This document shows positions 1,021-62,742 of a stretch of 64,000 nucleotides of DNA, piece after piece. The notes beneath the pieces are model-generated. The model did not search any database. It was not told the DNA's origin and saw nothing but the letters and a program-made list of their open reading frames with translations. Positions within the stretch are counted from its first letter, which is position 1. Each line of letters opens with the position of its first letter. Both the position numbers and the translations under genes were made by a program. This DNA is from Orobanche coerulescens (taxonomy: Eukaryota; Streptophyta; Magnoliopsida; Lamiales; Orobanchaceae): contig CM065802.1 of NCBI GenBank assembly GCA_033398695.1, forward strand, positions 146,182,096 to 146,246,095, read 5' to 3'.

Positions 1021-1581
1021 TAGCGCACGCCACGTACTCCTTTAGCGTATGCTAATTGGGTATAGGTAGCGCACGCTACCACTCGCCTTTAGCGCACGCT
1101 AAGGTTGCAGGCTGCCGATCCGGAAGGTACCGGACCGGCAGTGAGTTATTTGTAGCGCACGCTACGAGTGGTAAGTAGCGCGCGCTAACGGGTTGTAGTA
1201 GCGCACGCTATATATGTGGAGTAACGCGCGCTAGGGACGGATCAGGTTGAGTCCAGTGGCTACTGGACTGCACTGGATTAATTCATAGCGCACGCTATGT
1301 GTTGTTTTTAGCGTACGCAATCGATATTATAGCGCACGCTAAATAATGGTTGTAACGCACGCTATCGAGGTCGCCGAGGTCGCGGTTTCTGGATTCCAAT
1401 ACTGGGCATCAAATTATTCGTTAGCGCACGCTAACTATGAGTATTAGCGCACGCTATTGATATGGCCGTAGCGCACGCTACAAAAAGGTACGTAGCGCGC
1501 GCTACCGTGTTCGGACAGTGGGTACTGTACTACCCAAATTACTCGTTAGCGCACGCTACGCACAAGGGCTAGCGCATGCTA
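1021..1581 (+). repeat. GC-flavour 12-bp palindrome array in LTR-A U3
   Basis: About 17 copies of TAGCGCACGCTA or one- to two-base variants (TAGCGCGCGCTA, TAGCGTACGCAA, TAACGCGCGCTA). Examples are 1067-1078, 1153-1164, 1176-1187, 1286-1297, 1422-1433, 1469-1480 and 1547-1558. Spacing is irregular, often 20-25 bp start to start. Intervening sequence is unique, so this is not a simple tandem repeat. The array ends about 12 bp before the TATA box. Confidence 0.95.
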
Positions 1582-1593
1582 ACCTGGACTGAC

Positions 1594-1600
1594 TATAAAT
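1594..1600 (+). promoter_or_regulatory. TATA box of LTR-A
   Basis: TATAAAT lies immediately after the palindrome array, with a pyrimidine-rich leader (TTTCTCTTCCTCTC) about 40 bp downstream. It has the same position relative to the array as in the other long LTRs of the window. Confidence 0.7.
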
Positions 1601-1774
1601 TGGACAGTTTTGTCAGACTTCGATATTTGTCATCTATTTCTCTTCCTCTCGTCGGTTCTTGGCGATTTGGGCGATTTAGAGAGTATTCTTCAAGGTGTAA
1701 TCATCAATCATCATCTTCAAGTCTTTGAGTTGGATTAATCATCACTTCATCATCTCCAAAACACCGAATCAAAG

Positions 1775-2887
1775 GTATTAATTTCTTGGATCTAGAATTT
1801 CGGATTTTTGGGTTTTCCTTCCGATTCCTTCGTGTAAGCTTGGATTATCATTGAAATATGTTAGATATGGATTATCTACCTTGGATAAATATATTCCTAT
1901 GGATTTAATGGTTATTTTCGGAATTATTTCAAGAACCCTTGGGGTTGACTTCGGTTAATTGGGGATTTTCCGATTGATGTTGTTGTAATCATGAATTATG
2001 GATTCCTAATGGATTATTGATATCATTGAAGTGTTTTGTTGGATCGAAATACTCAATTTGACGTTGGTTTCGACATATTCGGGATTGGATAATTTCGAAG
2101 TTGTGTAGTTGGTTATGTATTCGTTGGAATGCCCTATGAGTTTGATTATCGTTGTTTCGACCTTTAGGTTAGTCGTGTTTTGTTGTTTGATACGTGTACT
2201 GAACGATTGTTGGTAATGATTGTTATTCAAGGTTGTTCGAGCGACCAGTATCTTGGTTAGGACGTTGTTCGTGGACGAACATTCTTCATCGGTATTGTGT
2301 AAGTTAAATCTTACTCGGTTAAAAGGATACTCATTCCTTTTGTTGTTGATTGCTCATAATCATAATTCATTCATCATAATATTAATCATTTGAGACTTGT
2401 AATTGTCGAATAATCATTTCATTCACGAGGAACGACGGTTCGAAATCATTTCATTGGGTTATCAATCACGTCACTATTACTTTCATATCGGTGAGTCATC
2501 TTGGCCTTGTCTAATTATTATTCATTGATATTCCTTATGGTCATTCACGTTCATATGACCTTCTGGGTTCATATTGCGTGGCCGGGTGTGGCTGTGTGGA
2601 ATTTTTAGTCGGGCACACGATGGTCATGTATTGGGTTCACCGATACATCGGACCGTGCACACGGTAACGCTTACCTCCGTGAGACTAATTAGGTACAAGG
2701 ACGGGTGTGTCCGGTCATTCGTCTTGTACACTTGCACAGAACATTACGGGCGTACTATGATACTCCTCTTCAGCGTAATTCATAATTAAAATAATTCATA
2801 ACTTCAGTTAATTCATGATTGTGTAATTTCAACTCTTGAGGATTGTTGTTCTGGGTCATTGACCCCGGTGGGGGATTTTGTTTTCAG
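1775..2887 (+). other. Candidate intron inside LTR-A
   Basis: Donor AAAG|GTATTA at 1775 lies 181 bp after the TATA box. Acceptor TTTTGTTTTCAG ends at 2887 and is preceded by TTGAC and the hairpin ACCCC-GGT-GGGG (2862-2874). Corresponding sites occur in the other gypsy LTRs. Splicing itself is inferred from motifs only. Confidence 0.45.
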
Positions 2888-3269
2888 GTCACGGCAAGGC
2901 AAAGGCACGGGAAGAGCATGCTGACGGCGAGGAGTCCCAATGATACTAGTAGGGGGCCCCAGTCATTTCGTTTGTTTCAGTCATTTCAGTCGTTTCAGTT
3001 ATTCCGTCATTTGTATTTTTCCGCTGCAAAATTCCGTTTGAAATGCTTATTTGTTCAGGGTGGTGTATTTTATCTCCATATAAAATATACTAGTATTCTG
3101 TTTTGTCCTGGTGTAATGTACTTAAACTCCTCATCGGAGTACTTGGTAATATAATGTGGTTCGGTACTGCAATTATATTATTTAATTCATCATTTTCATT
3201 TGCCTGGTGGGTCCCAGTCGGGGATTCACGGCACTGTAATATCCGCCTAGTTTGGGGTGTTACAGGTGC

Positions 3270-5580: not shown

Positions 5581-5760
5581 TTACGTACGGTAGGGGCGGT
5601 CCATTACGTACGTAATAGGACCTTACGTACGTTACATGATGTTACGTTACGTACGTAACAAATCGCAGGATTCAGTCCAGAGAGTTCAGGTTTTCACGCT
5701 ACGTACGTTACAGAAGGGATATAACGTACATAATCCGCCTTTGACCCTAACACATATAAA
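5581..5760 (+). promoter_or_regulatory. Internal palindrome array plus TATA box upstream of the extra SIRE ORF
   Basis: Six copies of the AT-flavour palindrome (TTACGTACGTAA-like: near 5581, 5603, 5622, 5646, 5700 and 5722) lie between the end of pol and the extra ORF. TATAAA follows at 5755-5760, then a leader of about 130 nt and the ATG at 5889. The layout copies the U3 of the element's own LTR (array, then TATA, then leader), although the sequences between motifs differ. I infer an internal promoter for the extra ORF. Confidence 0.6.
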
Positions 5761-5888: not shown

Positions 5889-7087
5889 ATGGCTTCCAGA
5901 TCTGGAAAGAAGAGAAGAGGAGAAACCTCCCAATCATCTTCCACGGCTTCCGGTGAACCAACCTTTCGGAATGCTTAGGCTATGAAAATCTTCAACGAAA
6001 TCCTTATCGACGAAGCGGTAACTCCGAGTCACCATTTTGATTTTGAATCTCTGAACTCTGCTGGTGTTGATATCGAAGAATTCTTCGATATGCTTGGGAT
6101 AAATCGTTTGTTAGCCTTGCTCGACCAATATATGTGGACTGTGTAAAAGAGTTTTATGCAATTTTTTTTGTCACGTATGATGCCGATGGACTTGCTGTGG
6201 TTAACTCTCTTGTGCGTGGTAAATCTATATCCTTTGATGTCGCAAAAGTTTCGGAACTCTTTGGTCTCCCCAATGAGGGTTTTCGTTGTAAAGGAGAGTT
6301 TGCTGCTCCAGATGAAGTCATTGAAAATTTCTCTGACGATGAAAGCTATGGTGTTCATGAGTCCAAGGTCCGTGATTTTTTGTCGGACAAAGCCGTTCTA
6401 GATGTTCATTCCGGGCGTTTTGAAAACAATGACTTTGGGATAAACATCCGCTTGCTTCACCATGCTATCACTCGTTGTCTTATGCCTAAAGTTAATGCTC
6501 AGCTTCGTCTTGTGAATATCGATATGGATATCATTTATCATGTGTGGAAGGATCACCAAGTCAACTTCGCGTCTATTGTGCTAAAATGGTTCGTGGAAAA
6601 AGGTCAAATTTTCCACAAAAAGAGCTACGCGAAAGTTGATCGTCAGAGAAAATCGGGAATGCCGTTTGGGTCAATCTTAACAGAAATATTTGAGAAAGCA
6701 GGAGTTTATTTATCTGGGGTTCATGGGGTTCCGATTCCTAGGGGGAGCCTCGTCACCGAGGGGACTTTACGGACGATGAGGTATCTACGCACGAGAAATT
6801 GTGGATGGGTATACTTTGCGTATATCAAGGATGATGATCGGCTTGTAGAAGGGGGTGCTCTTCCGAGACCGGAGGAGAGGATCACATCTAGGGGGATCGA
6901 GCATACTGGACCTCGTCCTTCATCTCAGCTTGGTTCCTCCCGACCTCGTCCGGAATCCTCTTCATCTCAGATGGCTTCTCGGATGGATAGGCTCGAGAAA
7001 GATATGAGCGAAATCAAAATCATGGTCAAAAGCATCTGCACGCATTTTGGGATACCGCCGACACCTCCGGATGCGGACCTTGACTAG
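5889..7087 (+). pseudogene. Extra ORF downstream of copia pol (plant transposon-protein-like), with one stop and one frameshift
   Basis: Starts at ATG 5889 with a basic, Ser-rich N-terminus (MASRSGKKRRGE). An in-frame TAG near 5976 and a one-base shift near 6120 break it; from 6134 it is open for 317 codons to TAG 7087. The core (VDCVKEFYA, NSLVRGKSISFD, ELFGLPNEG) resembles the 'putative plant transposon protein' domain seen in extra ORFs of plant retroelements; this is recognition by eye, not a search. The C-terminus is Ser/Pro/Arg rich and ends in a short coiled-coil-like segment (MDRLEKDMSEIKIMVKSI). No transmembrane helix is apparent, so an envelope role is not supported by what I see. 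It has its own array and TATA upstream. Confidence 0.75.
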
Positions 7088-7488: not shown

Positions 7489-7570
7489 TGTTGGAACAAT
7501 ATTTTTTCTTAGATCATTTTGATGATGTGTTATTAAAACCAAAATTTACTTAAACATATTTTTCTTCAAT

Positions 7571-7979
7571 TAACGTACGTAACGCAAACCATCTTAACGT
7601 ACGTAACATTCACAGTTGTCTGCAAGATTTTCAGTACAATTAACGTACGTAACTCGTCTATCATAACGTACGTAACACTCATGGTTTTCGTAAGTTTTTC
7701 TGTACAGGTAACATACGTAACCAGAGTTATCTAACGTACGTAATGCTTGAATTATTCTGACCGTTGGAAAAGTCACTAGCCGTTGCAACAAGTCGTCACA
7801 CTCAACTGATATCTGACCGTAATATTATGTACGTAACCATGCAGTTCATAACGTACGTAACGTATATTATCATATCTCACTGGACCAGTTCTTCACTGTT
7901 CGTTATGGCCGCTATTCGTAGCATATAACGTACGTAACGTTCATAACGTACGTAACCATCAGCACGTAATGTACATAAT
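7571..7979 (+). repeat. AT-flavour 12-bp palindrome array in SIRE U3
   Basis: About 11 copies of TAACGTACGTAA or close variants, e.g. 7571-7582, 7595-7606, 7641-7652, 7664-7675, 7732-7743, 7849-7860, 7926-7937 and 7943-7954. The 8-bp core ACGTACGT is itself palindromic. Variants are mostly transitions (ACATACGT, ATGTACAT). The array lies 40 bp upstream of the TATA box. Confidence 0.95.
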
Positions 7980-8019
7980 CAGTTAAACTATTCCATCGGG
8001 AATATGAGCTCAAGAAGGC

Positions 8020-8027
8020 TATAAATA
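8020..8027 (+). promoter_or_regulatory. TATA box of the SIRE LTR
   Basis: CTATAAATAGCCC is a strong plant TATA context, about 40 bp after the last palindrome of the U3 array. Transcription probably starts 25-35 bp downstream. Confidence 0.75.
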
Positions 8028-8536
8028 GCCCACTTCATGGAGATTGAAGATACACAAGCATTCTGAGCCTACTAGCATACTCAAGCAATATCAAGCAAAC
8101 ATTTTGAGAGATATACTTATTCTAGATTGTGATACGAGAAGATTTGTTCTATAATTTCCAATCTTCATTCTTGTATCAAAGAGCGATATATCGTGAAAGT
8201 CGAGTTCCTACTCGCATTTATTTGTGTAAAGGTTATCTTGTACCCAGAAAAACAAGAGTGTTTTAGTGAGGTTGTTCTTGAGTCCGGAAATCAAGAAGTT
8301 GTAAGAAGTTGGCACTAAACTAGAAAGTGCAATTCTAAGTTCTAAGAAAAGTCCTAGTCGATAAAACTAGGTAGGGGACGTAGGCTTCGTTAATAGCCGA
8401 ACCTCTCGAACAATTTCTTGTGTTCCTTGTTTTCCGCACTTTTATTACTCCGATATTTTTGCTTCCGCACAAAAAGAGTACAATACTCTTATCCGCACTA
8501 TTCAACCCCCTTTCTAGTGGCGGTACCAATCTAACA

Positions 8537-17351: not shown

Positions 17352-17509
17352 GTATATGTAATACCCGAGATTTCTGTTATGTAATTGGAACTTGCGATAT
17401 TGTAATGATTGTACTTTTGTCTGAATACTATTCTCCGTATTTCATATTCCGATATCGCCGAGCATATAATTTCGTGTATGTGATTTAAAAGGATGAAATT
17501 CTATGCATG

Positions 17510-17796
17510 TAGCGCACGCTACAGGCTAAGGGTAGCGTACGCTAACATGGTTTTATAGCGCACGCTACCGAGTGTAAGTAGCGCACGCTATGCGTGGTCG
17601 ACCGATTGAGACGCGGCGGTAGGTGAGATCTCGCCGGGACCCCCGCCGGATCGTGTCGGATGTACCGGACGGCTTTCGGAAAAGCCGGTCAACGCCTTAG
17701 CGCACGCTACAGAATATGCGTAGCGTACGCTAAGTGCCGAGTACGCTTTAGATCAGAGCGTTAGCGCACGCTACGAACAGGGTGTAGCGCGCGCTA
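17510..17796 (+). repeat. GC-flavour palindrome array, gypsy-1 5' U3
   Basis: Eight copies of TAGCGCACGCTA, TAGCGTACGCTA or TAGCGCGCGCTA, in two groups of four. The last (17785-17796) is 12 bp before the TATA box. The corresponding array in the 3' LTR lies at 24707-24999. Confidence 0.95.
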
Positions 17797-17808
17797 ATAG
17801 CCATTTAT

Positions 17809-17816
17809 TATAAATA
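17809..17816 (+). promoter_or_regulatory. TATA box of gypsy-1 5' LTR
   Basis: TTATTATAAATAGGAC is a strong TATA context; the identical box in the 3' LTR lies at 25010-25017. Confidence 0.75.
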
Positions 17817-18017
17817 GGACAGCATCCTATTCGTGATTTCAGTCCTTTCTTCCCACATAACCCGAACTCTTGCACTTGAAACATAACTCCATTCGTCCTA
17901 AACACTCCATATCAACCTCCTAGTTCGAGATTGAAGATCATATACCATTGGAGATCGGTGTTCAAGCCGTGGGTGTTGGATTGCTTCATTTTCATCCGTG
18001 TTCTTCACTACTTTGAG

Positions 18018-19394
18018 GTAGGTAATTCTTCACCGATGATTATTGAGGTTCCTAAGGAAGTTTTAATCATGTTTGGATAGCAAGTATCTCGTTTTTATCG
18101 GTCATCACATGTTAGAAGGATACTTTTGACGTATCGGTACTAGATGTCGAACGAACCTTTGAACCATCTTATTATAAGGACTCCTAAGCATGTTTAAATC
18201 GATTTATGATCGAGTAATCGGATATTACCCAGTTGATACGTTGTATACGTTGGAATCATGTGTTTTGGAACGTAAGATGATGGAACTTAGATTATTTCTT
18301 GAAGATCGTAGAGGAATTGTGATATCGAGATAACTATCCGTATATTGGTATTTCATAATCATAAATCTTCCAGAAACCTTATTAGCATGATATGCCCGAG
18401 GATAACTTGTAATATCACCATAGGATTCATGAGTTCTTCATCATTCAACCCGGTTTTCGGTTTGCAGTATTCTGCCATGCAAAAGTAGCGCACGCTAACA
18501 TGTGTGAGTTAACGTGCGCTATCGAGGTTCGGTTTTCGCACAAAACGGACGTAACGTACGTTATGAGACAGCCGAGTCAGACTGCCAGTTCGTGGCTAGC
18601 GCACGCTAGTCTTATACGATAGCGTACGCTAACAGTTCAGCTTAGCGCACGTTACGTATAGTACGTAGCGCGCGCTAAGCAATCCAGGCAGCTTGTTTAA
18701 GTTTGAACTTTTCGGCCGTAGGTCGAATTGTTAGGCCATTGTTCAACTCGAGATGATTTGTATATCGTTCCTTTTGTTAGGGTTCAAGCTTGTTACGTTG
18801 ATCGGAGGGGGCGGCCTTCGAGTGCGTCGAGAGCATTGAAGTATATCGTTCTTGCCATCTACGAGGCAAGTATCGTGATATGTTAATATCGGTATTTTTG
18901 GAGTATGCGTATGATTATGCATGTTGTTGAACATGATAGTTACTTCGTTGATTTGTCATGATATTCGTTATATAGTGTTTACATGTTCATGATGATGAAC
19001 ATAATGATTTGGCATAAGTGTATGCATGAGTTGTGTTTGTATACGTTGTGCGATCTATGCTGAGGGCGCTGGATCGAATGTCCACCTCGTGTTGATCCGA
19101 CGAGATCATCTTGGGATCTAGGCTGAGGGCGCTGGATCATTAGACGGGTTATTTCCACCTCGTGTTGGTCCGACGGGATCATCTTGGGATCTATGCTGAG
19201 GGCGCTGGATCATTGGAATACCCATGCTGTATAATGAAATCTTGTGGATTTGCATTGTCGGATTCCGGTAGCGGAAGTCCGTGTGGTGTATCTTGTTATG
19301 TATTACTGATGCATATTCGAATTGTTTAACATGATACTTGTACTAGCATCGTTTTGCTAACCCCTTCGGGGGTGGACATTGTTTTGATGTTCAG
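18018..19394 (+). other. Candidate intron inside gypsy-1 5' LTR
   Basis: Donor TTGAG|GTAGGT lies 209 bp after TATA. Branch-like TTGCTAAC (19355-19362) overlaps the start of the CCCC-TTCG-GGGG hairpin, then TTGTTTTGATGTTCAG ends at 19394, about 35 nt from the branch A. The 3' LTR repeats all parts (25219-26578). Splicing is inferred. Confidence 0.5.
18486..18679 (+). repeat. Second palindrome array of gypsy-1, inside the candidate intron
   Basis: Seven copies mix both flavours: TAGCGCACGCTA, TAACGTGCGCTA, TAACGTACGTTA, TAGCGTACGCTA, TAGCGCACGTTA and TAGCGCGCGCTA. This shows that the GC and AT forms are variants of one motif. The counterpart in the 3' LTR lies at about 25678-25862. Confidence 0.92.
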
Positions 19395-19703
19395 GTAGCC
19401 GAGGAGCGGGAGGCACCACAAGATCGGCAGTGACGATGAGATGGCTCGGTGATGTGGTTGTTGTTATTGTTGTCGAGAGTTGTTTTTCTTGTTTCGCTCA
19501 AGACTCGAGCACGTCTGCTTTGATAATGTCCTTTCGATATGGTTGTATAAATTAACTCTTTGATCGGTTGAATCAAATATGTCTTTAAACTTCGATGTAC
19601 GATTGGTTTATATTTACACACTTCTTAAAATTAGCCTTGTAAATCCTTACCTAAAGGGTTTACGACGCCGTAATTATTCGAATATCTCGGGGTGTTACGA
19701 ATA

Positions 19704-24553: not shown

Positions 24554-26884
24554 TGTAATACCCGAGATTTCTGTTATGTAATTGGAACTTGCGATATTGT
24601 AATGATTGTACTTTTGTCTGAATACTATTCTCCGTATTTCATATTCCGATATCGCCGAGCATATAATTTCGTGTATGTGATTTAAAAGGATGAAATTCTA
24701 TGCATGTAGCGCACGCTACAGGCTAAGGGTAGCGTACGCTAACATGGTTTTATAGCGCACGCTACCGAGTGTAAGTAGCGCACGCTATGCGTGGTCAGAC
24801 TGATTGAGACGGTAGGTGAGATCTGGCCGGGGGACCCCTGTCGGATCGTGTCGGATGTACCTGGACGGCTTTCGGGAAAAGCCGGGTCAACGCCTTAGCG
24901 CACGCTACAGGAATATGCGTAGCGTACGCTAAGTGCCGAGTACAGTTTAGACTGTGAGCCGTTAGCGCACGCTACGAACAGGGTGTAGCGCACGCTAATA
25001 GCCATTTATTATAAATAGGACAGCATCCTATTCGTGATTTCAGTCCTTTCTTCCCACATAACCCGAACTCTTGCACTTGAAACATAACTCCATTCGTCCT
25101 AAACACTCCATATCAACCTCCTAGTTCGAGATTGAAGATCATATACCATTGGAGATCGGTGTTCAAGCCGTGGGTGTTGGATTGCTTCATTTTCATCCGT
25201 GTTCTTCACTACTTTGAGGTAGGTAATTCTTCACCGATGATTAGTAAGGTTCCTAAGGAAGTTTTAATCATGTTTGGATAGCAAGTATCTCGTTTTTATC
25301 GGTCATCACATGTTAGAAGGATACTTTTGACGTATCGGTACTAGATGTCGAACGAACCTTTGAACCATCTTATTATAAGGACTCCTAAGCATGTTTAAAT
25401 CGATTTATGATCGAGTAATCGGATATTACCCAGTTGATACGTTGTATACGTTGGAATCATGTGTTTTGGAACGTAAGATGATGGAACTTAGATTATTTCT
25501 TGAAGATCGTAGAGGAATTGTGATATCGAGATAACTATCCGTATATTGGTATTTCATAATCATAAATCTTCCAGAAACCTTATTAGCATGATATGCCCGA
25601 GGATAACTTGTAATATCACCATAGATTCATGAGTTCTTCATCATTCAACCCGGTTTGCGATTCTCGCCATGCAAAAGTAGCGCACGCTAACATGTGTGAG
25701 TTAACGTGCGCTATCGAGGTTCGGGCGACAAAACGGACGTAACGCACGTTATGAGACAATGAGTCGATCGCCGATCGTGGCTAGCGACGCTAGTCTTATA
25801 CGATAGCGTACGCTAACAGTTCAGCTTAGCGCACGTTACGTATAGTACGTAGCGCGCGCTAAGCAATCCAGGCAGCTTGTTTAAGTTTGAACTTTTCGGC
25901 CGTAGGTCGAATTGTTAGGCCATTGTTCGACTCGAGATGATTTTTATATCGTTCCTTTTGTTAAGGTTCAAGCTTGTTACGTTGATCGGAGGGGGCGGCC
26001 TTCGAGTGCGTCGAGAGCATTGAAGTATATCGTTCTTGCCATCTACGAGGCAAGTATCGTGATATGTTAATATCAGTATTTTTGGAGTATGCGTATGATT
26101 ATGCATGTTGTTGAACATGATAGTTACTTCGTTGATTTGTCATGATATTCGTTATATAGTGTTTACATGTTCATGATGATGAACATAATGATTTGGCATA
26201 AGTGTATGCATGAGTTGTGTTTGTATACGTTGTGCGATCTATGCTGAGGGCGCTGGATCGAATGTCCACCTCGTGTTGATCCGACGGGATCATCTTGGGA
26301 TCTAGGCTGAGGGCGCTGGATCATTAGACGGGTTATTTCCACCTCGTGTTGGTCCGACGGGATCATCTTGGGATCTATGCTGAGGGCGCTGGATCATTGG
26401 AATACCCATGCTGTATAATGAAATCTTGTGGATTTGCATTGTCGGATTCCGGTAGCGGAAGTCCGTGTGGTGTATCTTGTTATGTATTACTGATGCATAT
26501 TCGAATTGTTTAACATGATACTTGTACTAGCATCGTTTTGCTAACCCCTTCGGGGGTGGACATTGTTTTGATGTTCAGGTAGCCGAGGAGCGGGGAGGCA
26601 CCATGCAAGACGGGGACGATGAGATGGCTCAGTGATGTGGTTGTTGTTATTGTTGTCGAGAGTTGTTTTTCTTGTTTCGTTCAGTACTCGAGTACGTCTG
26701 TTTTGATAATGTCCTTTCGATATGGTTGTATAAATTAACTCTTTGATCGGTTGAATCAAATATGTCTTTAAACTTCAGATGTACGATTGGTTTATATTTA
26801 CACACTTCTTAAAATTAGCCTTGTAAATCCTTACCTAAAGGGTTTACGGCGCTGTAATTATTCCGAATATCTCGGGGTGTTACA
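24554..26884 (+). repeat. gypsy-1 3' LTR
   Basis: 2331 bp, ending TTACA. Nearly identical to the 5' LTR over long stretches. Differences cluster in the GC-rich array regions (24797-24960, 25650-25800, 26590-26620) at CAG/CTG-containing words and small indels. Array, TATA (25010-25017), candidate intron (25219-26578) and hairpin (26544-26557) are all conserved. Confidence 0.93.
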
Positions 26885-28384: not shown

Positions 28385-28672
28385 TGTAATACCCGCGATT
28401 TTCGTTCCGGTTATTTTGAATTTTTTTTATTTGGATGCTTCCCGGTTGCCGAGCGCTGATATTATTTTCTCAACAACTAATTTTGGTGTTTATGGCTGTA
28501 TGTGGTGGTTTGTTATCCATTGTTTTCATTTCGGATCGATGATGTTGTCCTCGAGCATTTTGTCGTGTTCGTTCCGTGCGATTTCGGAAAAATCAAGTCG
28601 TCGAGTCATGGCGGCAGGGCACTGGACGGAAGGGTGCGAGCACTGGCCGGACAGGTGCGGTAGGAAGCGGCA

Positions 28673-28994: not shown

Positions 28995-29005
28995 GTCTGC
29001 ACCAG

Positions 29006-35447: not shown

Positions 35448-36011
35448 TGTAATATCCACAATTTCGATTTCCGGTAATTTTCTTTTTTTCGGCGGGGGTC
35501 TGTTTCGACGACTCGCTTATGACCGTTTCGTCATTATGAGAATGATTAATTCTGCACTTTTTGACATCCGAGTTCGTTTCGGTGTTGTTTTGTTGAGTTC
35601 CGTGCTTCGTAGTGACTTTTCCGCACTCGAGTTCGATTCTTGCGAATCTCATTCAAAACTACTGTTTCGAGTTTCACGTAAGTTCGTTTAACTTTGTTAG
35701 ACGTGTTGTGAACTTCGGTTTGGTTATTCGATCACGTATTGTGATTTTCGGGCGTTTTGGGCCATTTTGTAATTTACCCAAAGTTATAGGTATCTGCATT
35801 CGTATTTGTTCTCTTGACCCTTTTCATGGTCGCGTGTGATTAATTGTTGCATGGTATTTCATTTCGGGTCGTTGATGTTGTCCGCGAGCTTTTCGTCGTG
35901 TTTGTTCCGTGCGTTTTCGGAAATCGAGACGGCTGAGCACTGGCCGGCCAGGTGCGGCAGGCACTGTCGGAAGTGCTGGACAGTGGCCGGCAGGCACGGC
36001 AGGAACCGGCG

Positions 36012-36406
36012 TAGCGCACGCTAGCTCGGCAGGTGTAGCGCGCGCTGCCGACCGTCCGGCGTACACTATCGGATTTGGGCAGAGGGGTTTTTGACGTACT
36101 GGACTCGGGAAGGAACGGTAGGTAGCGCACGCTACTGTCGGTCGCGGTGCACGCTAACCGGCAGGTGTAGCGCACGCTGTCGGCCGGCTAGCGCACGTTA
36201 CCTGGCCGAGCAGTTTAGTCCAGAGGGTTCTGGACAGGTTGGCTAGCGCGCGCTAGCGTCCGCGCAGCGCACGCTATCGGGGTCGGGCGGGCAGGCCTTG
36301 GTCGGCAGGTTTTGTCAGCAGTGCCGGGTCGTGCGGGCCCCGACCGAGGGTTCTGGGCCGATACTGGCCGATAGCGCACGCTAGTCCGGGAAGGCTAGCG
36401 CACGCT
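36012..36406 (+). repeat. GC-flavour palindrome array, gypsy-2 5' U3
   Basis: About 12 copies of TAGCGCACGCTA and variants (TAGCGCACGTTA, TAGCGCGCGCTA, CAGCGCACGCTA) in very GC-rich sequence. The 3' LTR array (41424-41663) has fewer intact copies because the GC-rich stretch differs. Confidence 0.93.
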
Positions 36407-36418
36407 AGTCCGGCCCAC

Positions 36419-36426
36419 TATAAATA
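36419..36426 (+). promoter_or_regulatory. TATA box of gypsy-2 5' LTR
   Basis: ACTATAAATATGACAGAGCAG, 12 bp after the last palindrome; repeated at 41784-41791 in the 3' LTR. Confidence 0.75.
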
Positions 36427-36594
36427 TGACAGAGCAGTCGCATTTTCACTCGTTTTTCATTTCCTTTCTTTTCTGTCCGTGACTGGAGTTTCAGAGGAGG
36501 TGAAGCCATGTTGTTAAACAACAAATCCATGAGGTTCTTGAGTTCATATCATTGATTGATCATTCCATAACATCCTTTGATCCAGCGAATCAAG

Positions 36595-38356: not shown

Positions 38357-38723
38357 GTACATACAGGTTCAGGGGAGCAGTCATAGGATTGGCACCGGAG
38401 AATGACGAGCTGCGATACTAATCAAGAGTTGAGAGTTGGTAGAGTTTGGTTGTATTATCAGAGTTGATTTCAATCTTCCGCTGTATTGTGTTTCAACCCC
38501 TGTGTGGGTAATGTTGTATAAGTCAGTTTTGTTAATTGAGTTGTGTGACCTCATCGGTCTGTGTATTCACGTGTAAGTGACCATAACGGTCTGTATTATT
38601 TTATTGTTTGTCCCTAGCCGGGCAAGCACTTGGTTGTTTTGTAAGGTATAGCCTGGTAGATCCTCGTAAAAAGGGGGCTAGGGCTTGTAATATTCCCATA
38701 TGGTTTTGGGGGTGCTACATTTA

Positions 38724-40846: not shown

Positions 40847-43800
40847 TGTAATATCCACAATTTCGATTTCCGGTAATTTTCTATTTTCGGTGGGGGTCCA
40901 TTTCGACGACTCGCTTATGACCGTTTCGTCATTCTGAGAATGATTAATTCTGTACTTTTTGACATCCAAGTTCGTTTTGGTGTTGATTTATTGAGTTTCG
41001 TGCTTCGTAGCGACTTTTCCGCACTCGAGTTCGATTCTTGCGAATCTCGTTCGAAACTACTGTTTCAAATTTCCCGTAAGTCCGTTTAATTTTGTTAGAC
41101 GTGTTGTGAACTTCGGTTTGGTTATTCGATCACGTATTGTGATTTTCGGGCGTTTTGGGCCATTTTGTAATTTACCTAAAGTTGTGGGTATCCGCATTCG
41201 TATTTGTTTTCTTGACCCTTTTCATGGTCGCGTGTGATTAATTGTTGCATGGTATTTCATTTCGGGTCGTTGATGTTGTCCGCGAGCTTTTCGTCGTGTT
41301 CGTTCCGTGCATTTTCGGAAATCGAGTCGTCGGGTCATGACGGCTGAGCACTGGCCGGACAGGTGCAGAAGGCACTGTCGGAAGTGCTGGGCACTGGCCG
41401 GGCAGGCGCGGAAGGAACCGGCATAGCGCACGCTAGCTCGGTAGGTGTAGCGCACGCTGCCGACCGGCCAGCGTACGTTATCGGATTTGGGCAAAGGGGT
41501 TCTGAGGTTCTGGACTCGGGAAGGATCGGTAGGTAGCGCACGCTACTGTTGATCACGGCGCACACTAACCGGCAGGTGTAGCGCACGCTGTCGGCCGGCT
41601 AGCGCACGTTACAGCGGCGATTTAGTCGAAGGTTACAGGCGGGTTGGCTAAGCGCACGCTAGCGTCCATGCGCCTGCCTTATCGGGTCGGCGGGCGAGCC
41701 TTGGTCGGCGAGTTTTGTCGGCGGTGCAGTCGTGCGGGCCCCGGGCAGTTACAGGCTATCGGCCGAATGCTAGTCCGGCCTAGTATAAATATGATAGAGC
41801 AGTCGCATTTTCACTCGTTTTTTATTTCCTTTCTTTTCTGTACGCGACTGGAGTTTCGGAGGAGGCGAAGCCATGTTGTTAAACAACAAATCCATGAGGT
41901 TCTTGAGTTCATATCATTGATTTATCATTCCATAACATCCTTTGATCCAGCGAATCAAGGTTAGATTTCCTAGAACCCTATCTTTGGGAAATTTTGGGGT
42001 TTTCGGGTTTTTGTCCGATTCGTTCCGTATTGTTGATTAATCTATGATGGGTATGATTAATCTTAGTATTATTCATGTGTTTAACATCATTTAATCCATT
42101 GTTCTTCGTCCGAATCAAGGTATTTTGGCTTGAACCCATGTTTTTGAAAGATTTTAGGGATTTTCTTTTTGATTTCGATTCCAATCCATTTTTGATAAAT
42201 TAATTGATGTATAAACGTTGTTTTGGACGTGTTCTACGGATTGTATATCCATATTTCGAGTTCGTTGGAACCCAATCGGTATTTTTGGTTTTCAAAGGAA
42301 CCTTGAACATTTAGTATCCGATTAAATGTCTCAAAGGGTTTCCTTCGATTCTTGATCGTGTTTTCCTTTGTTTTTAATTGTTATTCTCGTAGTAACTGTG
42401 TTTCCGTTGGATTTCACGGAGGATTGTAGGTGTTCGGGGTTTTTCGGGTTGTGCCTTGTTCATAGGAATATTCGGGTGCCGACGATCGAGGCAAGTATCT
42501 TATTATACGACTTGTATCTTGCGACTTGAAATCACGTATTAGGTTATGATGATTTTACTTGCCTCTGTAAATATGTTCCGTTTGAGTTGGTTGTGTATTC
42601 CGTAATGTGAAGGCCTTGTGATAATAGTGTTATATTGATATACGTGTTAGGTGTTGTGCCATTTGCGCAGGATTGCGATGTACATATGTGATGGTTGTAC
42701 ACTTGGTCGTGTAATGTATTGTATACCGATCGTGTGTTATGTTGGTTATGTGTCCTTGATTGATGACAGTTTGTTGTGAGTGTCGAGATTGTGTTATGTG
42801 CGTGTGAGGTACGATGTTGTGGTGATCAACGTGAATGATTAACTGTGCTCATTGTTGTATGAAATGTGATTGTGAATGTGAATATGTGTGTGACCGCTAG
42901 GTTCACTCGTGATAGTTCTACGGGACCTACGAGGACTCGTGGTAGTGGACTACGGGGTCAGAACTTAGTGAGGTACTGAGGTCCAATCGTGCTGGTCCGA
43001 CGAGGCCTACGATAACACATGGCAGTGGACCATGAGTTTCGGGCACAGTGCGTCCAACCGGGTGAGCTCGAAGGGGCTTACGGTGACACGTGGCAGTGGA
43101 ATACGGTGTTAGGACTGTGTGTGTGATTGTTGTGATCGATATAGTCCGTGTGGGTTGTTGAACCAACGGAGACACGTGACAGTGGATCACGGTGTCAGAA
43201 TTGGTTATGTTTGGTTATCGGTATGTGGAATAGTCCATGTGAGTTGTTGAACCTACGGAGACACGTGACAGTGAATCACGGTGTCAGAATTGATTATGTT
43301 TGTTTATTTGTGTGTGGTGTAGTCCGTGTGGGTTGTTGAACCTACGGAGACACGTGACTGTGGATCACGGTGTCATGAACATGTTTTGTCAATCAAAGTT
43401 TTGAAAGGAAAAGTTTTATGGAGAACTGTTGAGTTATGAAATAAGATTTGGGTTAAGACCCTAAAGTTTTTTGAAAGGATTTGTAACTTGGGACTTGAGG
43501 CTTTAGAGATTTTGTTCCTAGAATTCCCGAGATGATAAGTTTTTTTTTTTTAAATGCTTCATAGCTTATTTCCCTTGTTAAAACCTCCCGGGAATATTTT
43601 GGTACTTGGTTATTAAATTTGATAAGGATCAATGTTTGCTCGTTACTTTTCGTACGATTTGATACTTGCACTAGTAAAACAGTGGAGTTTTACTAACCCG
43701 CAAGTAATCGGGGGGGGGGGGGGGTGGATGTCTGTTTTGCATCCAGGTACATGCAGGTTCAGGGGAGCAGTGACAGGATTGGCACCGAAAAATGACGAGC

Positions 43801-44109
43801 TGCGATACTAATCAAGCGTTGAGAGTTGGTAGAGTTTGGTTGTATTGTCAGAGTTGATTTCAGTCTTCCGCTGTATTGTGTTTCAACCCCTGTGTGGGTA
43901 ATGTTGTATAAGTCAGTTTTGTTGATTGAGTTGTGTGACCTCATCGGTCTGTTTATTCACGTGTAAGTGACCATAACGGTCTGTATTATTTTATTGTTTG
44001 TCCCTGGCCGGGCAAGCACTTGGTCGTTTTGTAAGGTATAGCCTGGTAGATCCTCGTAAAAAGGGGCCTACGGCGTGTAATATTCCCATATGGTTTTGGG
44101 GGTGTTACA
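40847..44109 (+). repeat. gypsy-2 3' LTR
   Basis: 3263 bp, ends GTGTTACA. Very similar to the 5' LTR except in the GC-rich array (41330-41780), where many CAG words read CGG or CGA. The hairpin G run is expanded to 15 (43710-43724). TATA lies at 41784-41791. Confidence 0.93.
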
Positions 44110-47414: not shown

Positions 47415-49019
47415 TGTAACACCCCAAATTAAACCAGACGCTACAGTGCCGTGAATCCCGTGTGGGACCCACAAGGCGAGTTTTAAAAGAGGTTTTAAAA
47501 ACAATCGAATCAACAAGTAGTTTTCAGAAAATGTTCCAATGAAAGCGTTCGTACAACCGAAATACAAAGGGTATTAATGTCCGTTCATACTGTTATTACA
47601 CAACGTGGATTATTCAAATTTAGTTTAAGAAATTTAACAAGTCTTCTCGCCAACACTGCTCAAGCCTGACCGGAACCTTCGGGAGTGTCCTGCACATATT
47701 CAACAAATTTTCCTGACACGAGTATCGTTTTAGTCAAACCAGGTCAGATCAATCGAACAAAATGTCATTTACAGAATCAGATAAATTCAGAAAACAAGGT
47801 TATCACCGAATATTCAACATCATTTCTTTTATCAGCACATAAACTCCCAAGGTCGCAACCAAGGGTCACAGAAGTATCTGCACAGGAATACTCCGGAAGT
47901 GGGTACCATTCAGGTTTTATCCCTCACACAGTTCTGTAAGATATATCAACAGATAAACTCCCAAGGCCGCATCCAAGGGTCACGGAAGTATCTACACAGG
48001 AATACTCCGGACGTGATAGATAAGACGAGCACAATTTCATAGAAAATAACACATACAATATTCTGAAATTTTAAGACGTAAGGTCCGAGCAAGATTCACT
48101 TGCCTCAAATCCGACGAGAGTTACTCCCTTGATAACACAACGGCCCGAACGACCACAACCGAAGGCTCAACCTATCACATATTCGTCGATTAACATCTCA
48201 TGGTAACAATGATGATTAATGGATATTTCACCTCATCCCTCTAGGATCCTAAACTGGGTTGTTCACGTCGCCAAAATCAAAATTCTCTATTTTGACTGTA
48301 ATGCATACCATTAAATTCCTCGGTTCGCCATTTTACAATTTGTCATCTCGTTGATTAATGTTCTAATACAATATTCCTACGTTGTGAATATGGCTCAAGA
48401 CCACCGTAGTTACATCACTAATTTTAGTTTAAATTACTAGAATGGAACGATTAAGCACTAATTCCCGGAAGTCCTAATATGTTTGAATACCTATCCGAAT
48501 TAAAAGTCGTTAGTTAGTTCTTCAAGGAATTATTAACGTTTCTACGATATGTTATTAGGATTATAATTGAAATCTTCAACAAGATGATTCTAAGGTGTTG
48601 GTGATTAACAATTCGGTTATGAGTTCCCATCCAACTACGAGTACTACCATCATCCATTATATTTACTAGCTAGATAGGCATCGATTAATAATTTGTGATA
48701 GTTTTCACCATTCCGATCATTATCAAAAGTTCTAAACTACCCAAGGCATCTGAAATTTAGTATGACTGGTATAACAACATGGAAATGAGTTCAAGATTCT
48801 ATAAACTTACCTTAATCGACAAAAGAGGATGACGAACGATGAAGGACGACAAAGAATGAGAGGGTGGCACCTTCAAAACCTCCTCCGGAGCTTGATCAAC
48901 TCACTCCAACCAGATAACACTTGATTAGGGAAGCTAGAATAGACTTAGGGAAGGTATAGGATGGTATACAAGAGTAAGGGATGAGTTTTGGGTCGGAAGA
49001 AATGAAAGGGTGGGTGTCC

Positions 49020-49027
49020 TTTTATAA
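49020..49027 (-). promoter_or_regulatory. TATA box of gypsy-3 left LTR
   Basis: On the minus strand, GGATTTATAAAAGGAC directly follows the palindrome array. The right LTR has the same at about 56138-56147. Confidence 0.7.
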
Positions 49028-49040
49028 ATCCGTAATGGCT

Positions 49041-49350
49041 TTACGTACGTTAGGCATGAAGCTTTACGTACATAAGTCATGTTACGTATGTTATCCCAGA
49101 AAGCTTAACGTATGTAAGTAAAACTCAGAACTAACTGGACTAAATCACACACATTGTTACGTATGTAACAAAAGTCAGCTTACGTACGTAACACCCGTTG
49201 ACTTGCCGAAAGTTGGTCTGACAATGCACCATCCGACGAAGATTCCCTATCGGAAGACCGAAGACCACGTTACATACGTAAGGTATTATCTTTAGCGTAC
49301 GTAATGACACACTCTTAGCATACGTAATACATAGCTGTTAACGTACGTAA
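49041..49350 (-). repeat. AT-flavour palindrome array, gypsy-3 left LTR
   Basis: About 10 copies of TTACGTACGTAA or variants (TTACGTATGTTA, TTACATACGTAA, TAGCGTACGTAA, TAACGTACGTAA). The right-hand copy of the array is at 56159-56479 with the same spacing. One unit (TAGCGTACGTAA) is half GC, half AT flavour. Confidence 0.94.
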
Positions 49351-49678
49351 GGTTCAGTTTGTTCACTAAGTTATAATCACATTGATTCCTTATAATATGA
49401 CTCCCTCTCAATCTCATCGAGAAATCTCTCGGGGAACAAGACGTTGGCCACCGTCATATTCGCACCAATAATTGCCCAATGGCATCAAGGTATGTCACCG
49501 ACAAATCATCAATCACATTACAAGAATAACAGGCGCGGACAAGCTTTATTCATGATAATACAGTACGAACATATCATTCAAAATACATTTATCGTGACGA
49601 AGTACATTTATTTATTAAATATGTGAAATAGAAATGATCGCTCAACGTGAAACAGCATGTAATACTGGTGGTATTACA

Positions 49679-54563: not shown

Positions 54564-56818
54564 TGTAATGCCCCAAATTAAACCGGATGCTACAGTGCCG
54601 TGAATCACGTGTGGGACCCACAAGGCGAGTTTTAAAAGAGGTTTTAAAAACAATCTAATCAACAAGTAGTTTGCGGAAAATGTTCTATTGAAAGCGTTCG
54701 TGCAACCAAAATACAAAAGGTATTAATGTCCATTCATACGGTTATTACACAACATGGATTATTCAAATTTAGTTTAAGAATATTAACAAGTCTTCTCCCC
54801 AACACTGCTCAAGCCTGACCGGAACCTTCGGGAGTGTCCTGCACATATTCAAAAAATTTGCCTGACACAACGTATCGTGTCAGTCAAGCCAGGTCAGACA
54901 AATCGAACAAAATTTCATTTAAAGAATCAGATAAATTCAGAAAACAAGGTTATCACTGAATATTCAACGTCGTTTCTTTTATCAGCACATAACTCCCAAG
55001 GTCGCAACCAAGGGTCACGGAAGTATCTGCACAGGAATACTCCGGATGTGGGTACCATTCAGGTTTTATCCCTCAACACAGTTCCGTAAGATATATCAAC
55101 AGATAAACTCCCAAGGCCGCAGCCAAGGATCACGGAAGTATCTACACAGGAATACTCTGGACGTGATAGATAAGACGAGCACCATTTCATAGAAAATAAC
55201 ACATACAATATTCTGAAAATTTAAGATTTAAGGTCCGAGCAAGATTCACTTGCCTCAAATACGACAAGAGTTAATCCCTTGATAACACAACGACCCGAAC
55301 GACCACAACCGAAAGCTTAACCTATCACATATTCATCGATTAACATCTCATGGTAAAAATGATGATTAATGGCAATTGCCCCCATCCCATTAGGATCTAA
55401 ACTGGGTTGTTCACGTCGCCAAAATCGAAATTCTCTATTTTGACTGTAATGCATACCATTAAGTTCCTCGGTTCAATGTTCTAATACAATATTCATATGT
55501 TGTGATTATGGCTCAAAACCACCGTAGTTACATCACTAATTTTAGTTTAAATTACTAGAATGGAATGATTAAGCACTAATTCCCCGAAGTCCTAACATGT
55601 TTGAATACCTATCCGAATTGATAGTCATTAGTTAGTTCTTCAAGGAATTATTAACGTTTCTACGATATGGTAATAGGATTATAATTGAAATCTTCAACAT
55701 GATGATTCTAAGGTGTTGGTGATTAACAATTCGGTTATGAGTTCCCATCCAACTACGAGTACTACCATCATCCATTCCATTTACTAGCTAGATAGGCATC
55801 GATTAACAATTTGTGATAGTTTTCACCGTTGCGATCATTATCGAAAGTTCTAAACTACCCAGGGCATCCGAAATTTAGTATGACTCGTATAACAACACGA
55901 AAATGAGTTCAATATTCGATAAACTTACCTTAATCGACAAAAGAGGATGAAGAACGACTAAGGACGACAAAGAATGAGAGGGTAGCACCTTCAAAACCTC
56001 CTCCGGAGCTTGATCAACTCACTCCAACCGGATAACACTTTATTAGGGAAGCTAGAATCGACTTAGGGAAGGTATACGATGGTATACAAGAGTAAGGGAT
56101 GAGTTTTGGGTCGAAAGAAATGAAAAGGAGGGTGTCCTTTTATAAATCCGGAATGGGTTTACGTACGTTAGGCATGAAGCTTTACGTATGTAAGTCATGT
56201 TACGTACGTTATCCTAGAAAGCTTAACGTACGTAAGGAAAACTCAGAACTAACTAGACTAAATCACACACATTGTTACGTACGTAACGAAAGTCTGCTTA
56301 CCTACGTAACACCCGCTGACTTGCCTGCCGCTATCCGAAAGTTGGTCTGACAATGCACCATCCGACGAAGATTCCCTATCCGAAGACCGAAGACCGCGTT
56401 ACGTACGTAAGGTATTATCTTTAGCGTATGTAATGAAACACTCTTAGCATACGTAATACATAGCTGTTAACGTACGTAAGGTTCAGTTTGTTCACTAAGT
56501 TATAATCACATTGATTCCTTATAATGCGACTCCCTCTCAATCTCGTTGAGAAATCTCTCGGGGAACAAGACATTGGCCACCGTCATATTCGCACCGATAA
56601 TTACCCAACGACATCAAGGTATGTCACCGAAAAATCATCAATTATCATACAATCACATTACAAGAATAACAGGCGCGGACAAGCTTTATTCATGATAATA
56701 CAGTACGAACATATCATTCAAAATACATTTATCGTGACGGAGTACATTTATTTATTACATAGGTGAAATAGAAATGATCGCTCAACGTGAAACAGCATGT
56801 AATACTGGTTGTATTACG
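54564..56818 (-). repeat. gypsy-3 5' LTR (right copy)
   Basis: Minus-strand start is C-GTAATAC: the terminal base pair at 56818 is G on the plus strand (TTACG), where the other LTR has TTACA. The other end is TGTAATGCCCC at 54564. Array 56159-56479, TATA about 56138-56147, candidate intron 55928-54839. Confidence 0.92.
54839..55928 (-). other. Candidate intron inside gypsy-3 5' LTR
   Basis: Minus strand: ATTAAG|GTAAGT is a consensus plant donor about 215 bp after TATA. The 3' side has GACTGAC, then TGACAC-loop-GTGTCA, then TTTTTTGAATATGTGCAG (54839). The order branch-like site, hairpin, acceptor is the same as in gypsy-1 and gypsy-2, although the sequence is different. Confidence 0.5.
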
Positions 56819-59194: not shown

Positions 59195-59209
59195 GTCCAA
59201 GTGGTAGAT

Positions 59210-60706: not shown

Positions 60707-60923
60707 TGTTGTAAAATTGAAATATTATAGAGAGAGAATTTAGAGAGAGAATAGAGAATGATTCTCAGGTATATTTTTTTATTAATAACTGAAGCTCTAT
60801 TTATAGGAAAACTTCAGATGGCATAATCGTAATTACATTATTACATCAGGGGCATAATAGTCATTCACACTATATAAAAACAAAGGGGTAATTGAAATGT
60901 CACTTTCGCGATATATTATAACA
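60707..60923 (-). repeat. Short copia LTR (Ale/Retrofit-like), minus strand
   Basis: 217 bp. On the minus strand it starts TGTTATAATATATCGCG and ends TTTTACAACA, with a TATA box (CCTATAAATAGAGC) near 60800. CAAGGGGGAG lies just outside (60924-60933) as the polypurine tract. Length and tract fit Ale/Retrofit elements. Confidence 0.8.
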
Positions 60924-61973
60924 CTCCCCCTTGAATGACTATTTACATAACTATCTGTTGAACTAGTTTGAAGAAAAACCCAATGGGAGAAAAACTTTCA
61001 AACTGTTTGTATTGGAGCTTGTGGCAATCATATCATGTTGCATCATAATGTTGGTAGGAAATCTCAATTGGATAAAACTTCAACAATCTGTAATCTCGTA
61101 AATTTGCTCCCCCTTATCTTGATAATTCTTGTATGAGTATTCTTGTGCCGTCTCAGTAAAACCTCGTGGGACAAAAACTGAGTGAATCTGTCATGTATAT
61201 CATTCGTTGTTGGGAGTATCCATGTGTTGCCTCATTAAAACCTGGTCAAGAAAACCCAGTGGGAAAAACTTGATCGAAAGAAAAAGCGTACAACTACTCC
61301 TATTTTCAAGCTTTGAGGAATAATCTTGATCTTTGTAGTGTTCCTCATTATGTCATGAATATGCCTCGTTAAAACCTTATTAGGAAAAACCCAATGAGAA
61401 AAATCCTAATTAAGGGAAAAGAGTACATTATTCATACTAATACGTCATTCCAGTTGCCTCGTTAAAAACCTTGCTAGGAAAACCCAATGGGACAAAACCT
61501 CAGTCAAGGGAAAAAGAGTGCAACGCGTATTTTATAAATTTGCCCCAGGCATTTCAATAATCCTCCGAGTATCATCTTCAGTGCAGTTTGTAATATCGAA
61601 CTCATATTTATTGCAATATATTCCAAATTTCTTTTGGAGATTCCATATTTGTTCTGATTAGGCTGCCTCGTTAAAAACCTTGCTGGGAAAACCTAGTAGG
61701 ATAAAACCTCAGTCAAGGAAAAGAGTACAGCATATAATTTTCATTCACAACGTTTTATTTTGAGTGATTGCATGCACTAATAATATGTTCAAAACTCCTT
61801 ACGTGTCACTTTCAGTAAGCCCATATGTTTCATTTTATTATAAGGGCGTATATTTCAATTTCAATGGATTTCAATATCCTCATTTTCACAAATCATGGAT
61901 TTTAATATCCTCATTTCCAATATCCATATTTCACAGTCATGGATATCCTCATATCATTTATCGATATCCTTTT
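60924..61973 (-). other. 3' noncoding part of the Ale-like element with diverged repeats
   Basis: Polypurine tract at 60924-60934. Upstream (rising coordinates), about six diverged units of a 60-75 bp repeat carry GCCTCGTTAAAA-CCTTG...AAAACCCAATGGGA...CAAGG (near 60970, 61145, 61213, 61362, 61454 and 61664). The CCTTG/CAAGG and CCCA/TGGG words can pair within each unit. No pol coding is reached before LTR-D at 61974; the rest of the element should lie right of the window. Confidence 0.7.
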
Positions 61974-62217
61974 TGTAATACCCGCATTTTTCTTTTCCTT
62001 GTATTTTCATTTTCGGTGTATTTCTCGATTGTAGCGACCCTCGTGTATCTTTCAGTGTATCTTTCCCGTCATCTATTGATCTGAGACTCGTTATTGTTGT
62101 GCGGAACTGCTGTTTCGTGGTTGCCGCGGATCCATTCTATGTTTTGATGCACTTTGAGGTGTTCCGTTTGATGTTTCGTTCATATTCCGGTGTTGTGAAC
62201 CGTTTATATTCTGTATC

Positions 62218-62742
62218 TAGCGCACGCTAAATTTCCTGCATAGCGCACGCTAGAGGTCCCTTAGTAGCGCACGCTACGTTTACTTCGTAGCGCGCGCTAG
62301 CGAATTAGCCCTAGGAGTGGCAGTGCTGTTTCCAACCCTCTGGACTGGCGGATTAGCGTACGCTACATAGTCTAGCGCACACTAATGTCGGGGGCTAGCG
62401 CACGCTGATATTTCCAGGTAACGTGCGCTACCGTGAGTGTCCAGTACTGGACAGTTTACTACTGAACTCGGTCAGGTGCCAGTTAGCGCACGCTACGCTT
62501 GTATGGTAGCGCACGCTAACGGTTCAGGTGAGTTTTGGGCAGTTAGCTTCTGGACTCGGCTGATGTCCAGGTGGCGCACGCTATTGGTCGATAGCGCGCG
62601 CTACCGTGTGGTTATTAGCGCACGCTATGTTTCGGGTAGCGCACGCTAACGGCCAGAAATCGCTCTTGGTGGGGCCTTCATTTGTATGGATTGGAATTTT
62701 ATCCGTTAGCGCACGCTAACCTTGAGGATTAGCGCGCGCTAA
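62218..62742 (+). repeat. GC-flavour palindrome array of LTR-D
   Basis: About 16 copies of TAGCGCACGCTA and variants (TAGCGCGCGCTA, TAGCGTACGCTA, TAACGTGCGCTA, TAGCGCACACTA), ending 12 bp before TATA. Confidence 0.95.

Follow-up and report, generated by a model that had tools for sequence, protein, structure and literature searches.

A directional 12-bp word arrayed ahead of TATA boxes is common to Sirevirus and Tekay-type long terminal repeats of Orobanche coerulescens

Dense arrays of one 12-bp word were found ahead of the TATA boxes of retrotransposons of two superfamilies, copia and gypsy, in a 64,000-nucleotide stretch of the Orobanche coerulescens genome (assembly GCA_033398695.1, contig CM065802.1, positions 146,182,096 to 146,246,095 of the forward strand), hereafter called the window. 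The word, its polarity (a CA centre on the sense strand) and its pitch are common to the copia and gypsy long terminal repeats (LTRs), which are assigned here to the Sirevirus and Tekay lineages, and a second motif is present in the gaps between groups of words; these features look new. Among the papers listed in searches of the open-licence literature, no description was found of a word common to Sirevirus and gypsy LTRs, nor of gypsy LTRs with this register, this polarity and this partner motif, and a search of that literature with the word itself gave one paper, unrelated to judge by its title; PMC6911290, in its available text, concerns insertion targets. The first-pass annotation of the window, which was made from the letters alone, described arrays of a palindrome and included neither the 23-bp pitch nor the polarity or the second motif.

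The presence of dense arrays in the LTRs listed by that annotation (LTR-A, the copia LTR, gypsy-1, gypsy-2, gypsy-3, LTR-C and LTR-D) was confirmed. The form TARCGYRCGYTA was matched 102 times in the window with one mismatch or less, where 0.96 matches were expected, and TTACGTACGTAA was matched 34 times with up to two mismatches (2.4 expected). With the joint form TWRCGYRCGYWA (one mismatch or less) 124 words were counted, 122 of which were located within 24.4 kb of LTR sequence or of the sequence preceding ORF3, the envelope-like open reading frame (ORF) of the Sirevirus; the remaining 39.6 kb of the window contained two words, each of them single. The core of the word is RCGYRCGY, with an alternation of purines and pyrimidines at positions 3-10, and the information content of the core was 0.9-2.2 bits per position compared with 0.01-0.25 in the spacers. 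Its description as a palindrome held for just 18 of 95 copies, as the most frequent form, TAGCGCACGCTA, has a directional C/A centre. Among the GC-form copies of the nine window arrays (one mismatch or less), the centre on the sense strand was CA in 44 cases and TG in two. This fixed polarity weakens the earlier proposal of a palindrome bound by a dimeric factor, and together with the low number of perfect copies it rules out a symmetric dimer on a perfect palindrome as a full account.

Nine arrays were examined, with one LTR per element, and each was read in the sense of its element (Table 1). The words are grouped in pairs or tetrads in which 46 of the 55 steps of 34 bp or less were of 22-24 bp (exactly 23 bp in 32 cases), and the spacers between them, of about 11 bp, are unconserved. 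Random placement of the words in 2000 trials gave a mean of 6.3 steps of 22-24 bp, with a maximum of 16. The main arrays had been said to end shortly before the TATA box. This was the case for eight of the nine arrays, which were directly followed by a sense-strand TATA within 45 nt, an event with a chance probability of about 5% per array for TATAWA, the arrays not being fully independent; the ninth, the second array of gypsy-1, had none. A plus-strand TATA for gypsy-3 was ruled out, as this element is transcribed on the minus strand. The distance from the last word to the TATA box was 11-14 bp in the six Tekay families and, in the Sirevirus, 21 bp for the array preceding ORF3 and 41 bp for the LTR array. 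To the array in the copia LTR of the earlier account, located in the 3' LTR, a separate second array before ORF3 has to be added. Tetrads often close with a variant copy, which has a CG centre or an A at position 3, and a higher-order period of about 130-136 bp (a tetrad plus a gap of about 52 bp) was observed at 1021-1581, 28673-28886 and 62218-62430.

The second motif, CTGGACTG, often occurs in the gaps between word groups, and in some Tekay arrays it forms a full inverted repeat, CAGTCCAG-N6-CTGGACTG. AGTCCAG occurred 10 times, in six of the nine array regions, and the best-shared 7-mer in 300 shuffles reached four regions. CTGGAC was present 17 times in total, against a shuffle maximum of 15. 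Intact GTCCAG and CTGGAC were close together at seven sites, all of them in arrays labelled Tekay.

LTR pairs were identified by self-comparison of the window and protein domains with Pfam. The Sirevirus at the left end of the window has multiple polypurine tracts (PPTs), a PPT tethered to the start of the LTR, a C-rich signal and an envelope-like ORF. Its integrase gene was split by the insertion of LTR-A (Pfam matches at 186-809 and from 3240), and its copy of ORF3 is broken, with a stop at 5985 in the first frame and a frame shift of the homology near 6107. LTR-A, LTR-C, LTR-D and the LTRs of gypsy-1, gypsy-2 and gypsy-3 all have a TGTAATA-C/T-C-like start, and their visible ends are GGGGTGTTACA or close to it, the U5 end being out of view for LTR-C and LTR-D. 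The U3 start resembles TGTAACACCC (one or two letters off) and the U5 end is of type A with GGG; these are the Del/Tekay attachment sites described in the available text of Cruz et al. (PMC4029996). A weak chromodomain match, below the curated Pfam cut-off, was obtained in pol of gypsy-1 only. LTR-C is akin to gypsy-2 (about 69-75% in blocks near the array), and gypsy-2 is probably non-autonomous, because its internal region is only about 2.1 kb long. The carriers of the arrays had been called unrelated, which applies to the Sirevirus versus the Tekay-type elements and not to the six other LTR families, as these share Del/Tekay-type termini; on this evidence, the seven elements would represent two lineages, one gypsy (Tekay) and one copia (Sirevirus). 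The statement that other copia elements of the window lack the arrays agrees with a scan which showed only two pairs of chance quality, a pair with 1 and 2 mismatches near 12.4 kb and a pair with 2 mismatches in each word near 31.4 kb, in elements whose LTRs are not delimited.

Sharing of the word between the superfamilies was also observed outside the window. Locus L024, which like the other loci named in this paragraph belongs to the random sample described below, harbours a copia element on the minus strand. Two LTR stretches, 92.6% alike, enclose a gag of copia type (Retrotran_gag_2, E 3e-17); three or more PPTs are present, and the PPT/LTR junction is identical to that of the window Sirevirus. 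The LTR arrays of the L024 element consist mainly of exact copies of the GC form TAGCGCACGCTA, for the most part at a 23-bp pitch and with CA polarity, and are accompanied by a half second motif and by a TATA box 43 bp on. Both forms of the word are therefore present in both superfamilies: among the Tekay families of the window, gypsy-3 carries the AT form and the others carry the GC form, and the Sirevirus has the GC form at L024 and the AT form in the window. A further copy of the Sirevirus family of the window, at L030, has both arrays in place. Copia pol relatives that share 28-57% identity with the pol of the Sirevirus, at L028, L032 and L042, are located in stretches without arrays, and their LTRs are not delimited.

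The exact pair TAGCGCACGCTA-N9-14-TAGCGCACGCTA was counted 223,878 times in the 3.646-Gb assembly (112,525 forward and 111,353 reverse, one tetrad yielding up to three pairs), and the reversed control was not found. A random sample (200 kb), not selected for the word, was made up of twenty 10-kb stretches from fixed positions on contigs C1-C4. The words in it numbered 268, compared with 11 when one sequence was simulated for each stretch, and 12 of the 20 stretches carried arrays with three or more words, 26 in total; by extrapolation from these four contigs, the genome would contain about 470,000 arrays. The pitch was 22-24 bp in 141 of 159 short steps. A TATA was found within 50 bp on either side of 17 of the 26 arrays, with one array having it on both sides. 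In the 16 arrays with a TATA on one side only, the centre was CA in 110 copies and TG in seven, the other 10 arrays (without TATA or with TATA on both sides) being left out of this count. AGTCCAG/CTGGACT was present 23 times within the 8.9 kb of array sequence (0.70 expected) and 15 times in the 191 kb outside. In viral contigs, the exact GC-form pair was not found; a looser GC form was found once in viral and once in prokaryote contigs, as single pairs and without an array. A search of the chance ORFs over the LTR-C array for protein relatives in other species gave nine candidates, none with E ≤ 0.001.

The sequence between copies had been described as unconserved between families. This is largely true across the superfamilies, where Sirevirus and Tekay spacers are mostly unalignable; the surroundings of the second motif and the related pair LTR-C/gypsy-2 depart from it. 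The best Sirevirus-Tekay match covered 21 of 23 positions around the second motif, between L024 (Sirevirus) and L034, which was called Tekay-type by its similarity to LTR-D and LTR-A. Spacer comparisons scored above all 100 shuffles in 6 of 40 cases between Sirevirus and Tekay, in 18 of 45 between Tekay arrays and in 4 of 6 between Sirevirus arrays. Within the window, a z above 3 (60 shuffles) was reached in 5 of 72 comparisons, namely LTR-C with gypsy-2, LTR-A with LTR-C and with LTR-D (both inverted), and the array preceding ORF3 with gypsy-2 and with LTR-C (the latter inverted). The words of LTR-C and gypsy-2 were 79% identical and the spacers 59% (p 6e-6). When both LTRs of one inserted element were compared, no significant difference between words and spacers was observed (88/92, 93/94 and 99/97%). 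This pattern fits selection during transposition followed by neutral decay. Selection on the word and its place, as proposed in the first-pass annotation, is supported by the mostly unalignable spacers between superfamilies, by the tight pitch and TATA distance and by the repetition of the pattern in the unselected 200 kb.

The arrays are perhaps best read, with a confidence only a little above even, as cooperative sites of a host factor that would serve both superfamilies, the arrays acting as upstream activator modules. Protein contacts are suggested by the fixed register and TATA distance, and a binder available in trans by the sharing of the word between two lineages without a common LTR. 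A sequence-specific DNA-binding factor of the host would occupy the words side by side in the 23-bp register, with the TATA-adjoining group set at a distance specific to the lineage, and the second motif in the gaps, single or as the inverted repeat, would be available to a partner. Cooperative binding would lead to transcription from the LTR and, in the Sirevirus, also to that of the envelope-like ORF3 from an internal promoter, for which the TATAAA at 5755, 134 bp ahead of the first ATG of the ORF3 homology, is a candidate. Sirevirus and Tekay elements would both have come to depend on the same factor or factors. The arrays would have grown by tandem duplication, and the words and their pitch would have been retained since only transcribed elements leave copies, the spacers being free to drift. 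Somewhat less than even confidence is attached to a host-wide promoter code, in which both superfamilies would have arrived, by convergence or by exchange, at one directional word with one partner motif in a 23-bp register; control of much of the LTR promoters, plus the internal promoter of the Sirevirus, by one or two factors is proposed just as tentatively.

A number of observations weigh against the host-factor explanation. A pitch of 23 bp does not correspond to an integral number of turns of the helix, and the strict polarity fits poorly with a simple symmetric dimer. The second array of gypsy-1 has no adjoining TATA, nine of the 26 arrays of the random sample have none within 50 bp on either side, and one array of that sample (L029, 5846) runs in the opposite polarity, as judged from two informative copies. 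For the second motif, the 6-mer CTGGAC was found in seven regions, which equals the shuffle maximum of seven; the Sirevirus arrays examined hold one intact half and never both; and AGTCCAG/CTGGACT was in or beside just 12 of the 26 arrays of the random sample. The comparison of LTR-C with the other gypsy-2 LTR gave 70% for words and 63% for spacers, which was not significant (p 0.13), and the words served as anchors in the spacer alignments, a bias towards finding them conserved.

The first-pass annotation had also envisaged a transfer of array segments between elements. It is unlikely, though compatible with the host-factor explanation as a question of origin, that a promoter module comprising the words, the pitch and the second motif moved by recombination or template switching between Sirevirus and Tekay and diverged later. 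The CA polarity of both lineages, the six of 40 spacer comparisons above all shuffles and the 21/23 match between one copia and one gypsy-type array are in favour of such a transfer. Of the six Sirevirus-Tekay matches, the best two, to which inspection was confined, consist of the second motif and its flanks, however, and transfer as demonstrated by spacer similarity was not shown beyond these surroundings. The spacings of the array preceding ORF3 (11, 7, 12, 40, 11) and of the gypsy-3 array (11, 39, 12, 6, 11) mirror each other, and a match was obtained in 167 of 5000 shuffles; as the mirror was spotted first and tested after, it is only suggestive. The TATA distances are specific to the lineage (11-14 bp versus 21 and 41-43 bp), so the junction with the core promoter was not moved as a block.

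An element-encoded factor acting in trans, for example the Sirevirus ORF3, might bind the arrays and counter silencing, with other elements exploiting it, but this is rather improbable. A precedent is offered by the VANC anti-silencing proteins of VANDAL elements, as described in the available text of Hosaka et al. 2017 (PMC5735166) and of a 2023 follow-up (PMC10398659). There, a short motif tandemly amplified in the non-coding DNA of a transposon is bound by a specific protein: VANC21 and VANC6 bind such motifs, and those of VANC6 are also present in an unrelated element (PMC5735166). The VANDAL elements of these accounts differ from the present case in being DNA transposons with an element-encoded binder and motifs of 8-9 bp, which are not promoter-phased LTR arrays. 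ORF3 has 14 annotated relatives in the database, all of them from Orobanche. The window copy matched only Transposase_32 in Pfam, the weak matches of its relatives (E up to 1) were to coiled-coil and similar families, with none to DUF1985, and ORF3 as a DNA binder thus had no Pfam support. Moreover, Table 3 of PMC2829016 includes Sireviruses without an envelope-like gene that also have repeated motifs of the kind discussed below.

A mode of action by DNA structure (hairpins or left-handed DNA) or by small RNAs (hotspots of small interfering RNA), rather than by the binding of proteins, is very improbable. In maize, palindromes of Sirevirus LTRs are hotspots for the mapping of small RNAs, according to the available text of PMC5311732, and the purine/pyrimidine alternation of the word would be consistent with this explanation. 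The words are short, however, with few perfect palindromes and with CG steps fixed in place, and hairpins would not predict a constant pitch and TATA distance. That the arrays are functionless remains of one captured tandem satellite is scarcely credible, since the words are nearly confined to LTRs or the stretch preceding ORF3, and the spacers, whose alignability had been named as the check, are mostly unalignable across the superfamilies while words and pitch persist, in spite of visible local duplication in the form of a 68-bp repeat in the Sirevirus LTR and of four LTR-A modules, each about 125-136 bp long (in an alignment with gaps, 37-62% of the aligned spacer positions are identical, the homology of these modules being only suggestive).

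Among known systems, the arrays of the window Sirevirus are members of the kind called RM boxes, with another core. As described in the available text of Bousios et al. 2010 (PMC2829016), RM boxes are symmetric, CpG-rich repeated motifs of Sireviruses, present in 8-32 copies per element, which cluster ahead of the TATA box in the LTR and, a second time, ahead of the envelope-like gene, and which were considered specific to Sireviruses versus classic copia elements. The copia arrays of the window similarly have many near-symmetric words, most of them imperfectly so, in the LTR upstream of the TATA, and a second array before ORF3, as also at L030. In contrast to the CGG-CCG core of 12 of the 13 published motifs (Tnd-1 being an exception), the core here is RCGYRCGY, and TAGCGCACGCTA and TTACGTACGTAA also occur in Tekay gypsy LTRs and are thus not Sirevirus-restricted. 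The 23-bp pitch, strand polarity and second motif are not among the features given in the available text of PMC2829016, where an internal promoter for the envelope-like gene was favoured and none was pinned down. For Del LTRs, a variable CpG-rich region in the 5' half, with a suggested link to silencing, was described by Cruz et al. 2014 (PMC4029996), where, in the available text, eudicot Del elements were without a CpG island and a repeated word was not described. In contrast, the Tekay LTRs of this eudicot of the Orobanchaceae carry defined words at a defined pitch.

Table 1. Retrotransposon features, word arrays and second-motif sites in the window
Feature	Position	Strand	Remarks
LTR-A, solo LTR, Tekay/Del-type	792..3264	+	start TGTAATACCC, end GGGGTGTTACA; 5-bp target duplication GGTGC on both sides
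LTR-A array, 18 words	1021..1581	+	mostly tetrads, ~23-bp pitch; TATAAA at 1594, 12 bp on
Second motif, full inverted repeat AGTCCAG-N6-CTGGACT	1250..1269	+	gap of LTR-A array
Sirevirus array preceding ORF3, 6 AT-form words	5581..5733	+	between pol and ORF3; TATAAA at 5755, 21 bp on
Envelope-like ORF3, Transposase_32 (PF20167)	5889..7087	+	homology from ATG at 5889
Sirevirus 3' LTR	7489..8536	+	preceded by PPT AAAAAGGGGGAGA; second PPT at 7315; C-rich signal near 3' end
Sirevirus LTR array, AT-form words	7571..7978	+	last word with 2 mismatches; TATAAA at 8020, 41 bp on
gypsy-1 5' LTR	17357..19699	+	Tekay/Del-type termini; target site duplication (TSD) GTATA
gypsy-1 promoter array, 8 words	17510..17796	+	TATA 12 bp on
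gypsy-1 second array	18486..18677	+	~700 bp past TATA box, without its own TATA; 3' LTR counterpart 25678-25861
gypsy-1 3' LTR	24554..26884	+	two arrays in same places as 5' LTR: 24707-24997, 25678-25861
LTR-C, Tekay/Del-type start	28385..30950	+	3' end approximate
LTR-C array, 10 words (≤2 mismatches)	28673..28994	+	TATATA 11 bp on
gypsy-2 5' LTR	35448..38719	+	gag match inside; TSD TTAAT
gypsy-2 array, 9 words	36012..36407	+	TATAAA 11 bp on
Second motif AGTCCAGAGGGTTCTGGAC	36217..36235	+	gap of gypsy-2 array
gypsy-2 3' LTR	40847..44109	+	decayed array 41424-41661, TATA-proximal pair lost
gypsy-3 LTR	47415..49678	-	element on minus strand; TSD GCGAA
gypsy-3 array, 10 AT-type words	49041..49350	-	minus-strand TATAAA at 49021-49026, 14 bp on
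gypsy-3 other LTR	54564..56818	-	array 56159-56479
LTR-D, Tekay/Del-type start	61974..64000	+	continues to window end
LTR-D array, 16 words	62218..62741	+	TATAAA 13 bp on
Second-motif halves	5674, 28785, 36099, 49135, 62340, 62550

Several further features were noted. The LTRs of gypsy-2 contain an 89-bp tandem repeat (2.6 copies) downstream of the promoter, at 37762-37995 and 43141-43375. A copia element (47085-47414 plus 56819-60419), related to the copia at 32.8-35 kb, hosts the nested gypsy-3 with its target duplication GCGAA. In a phage contig (L003, IMGVR_UViG_3300033463_001428), about eight TTACGTACGTAA-type words, four of them exact to TWRCGYRCGYWA, were found at 5761-5931 with a pitch of 22-23 bp and unconserved spacers; this is an independent array of the AT word at nearly the same pitch. 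It directly precedes a small ORF, which matched Arc-like repressors in PHROG (E 1.2e-4) and, below the cut-off, CopG/RHH in Pfam; terminase and portal genes follow. At L036, a stretch with three arrays, a weak match to an Ulp1-type protease (Peptidase_C48, E 0.0025, below the cut-off) was obtained at 5495-5803. Ulp1-type protease domains are possible in VANDAL-like transposons.

The regulatory words of LTR retrotransposons are usually regarded as private to a family. If the host-factor explanation is true, the abundant retrotransposons of this plant would hang on a common factor or factors, which would give the host a single point at which to start or stop much of its mobile DNA. The idea of an internal promoter for the envelope-like gene of Sireviruses, not settled in 2010, would gain a concrete and mappable candidate in the TATA at 5755.

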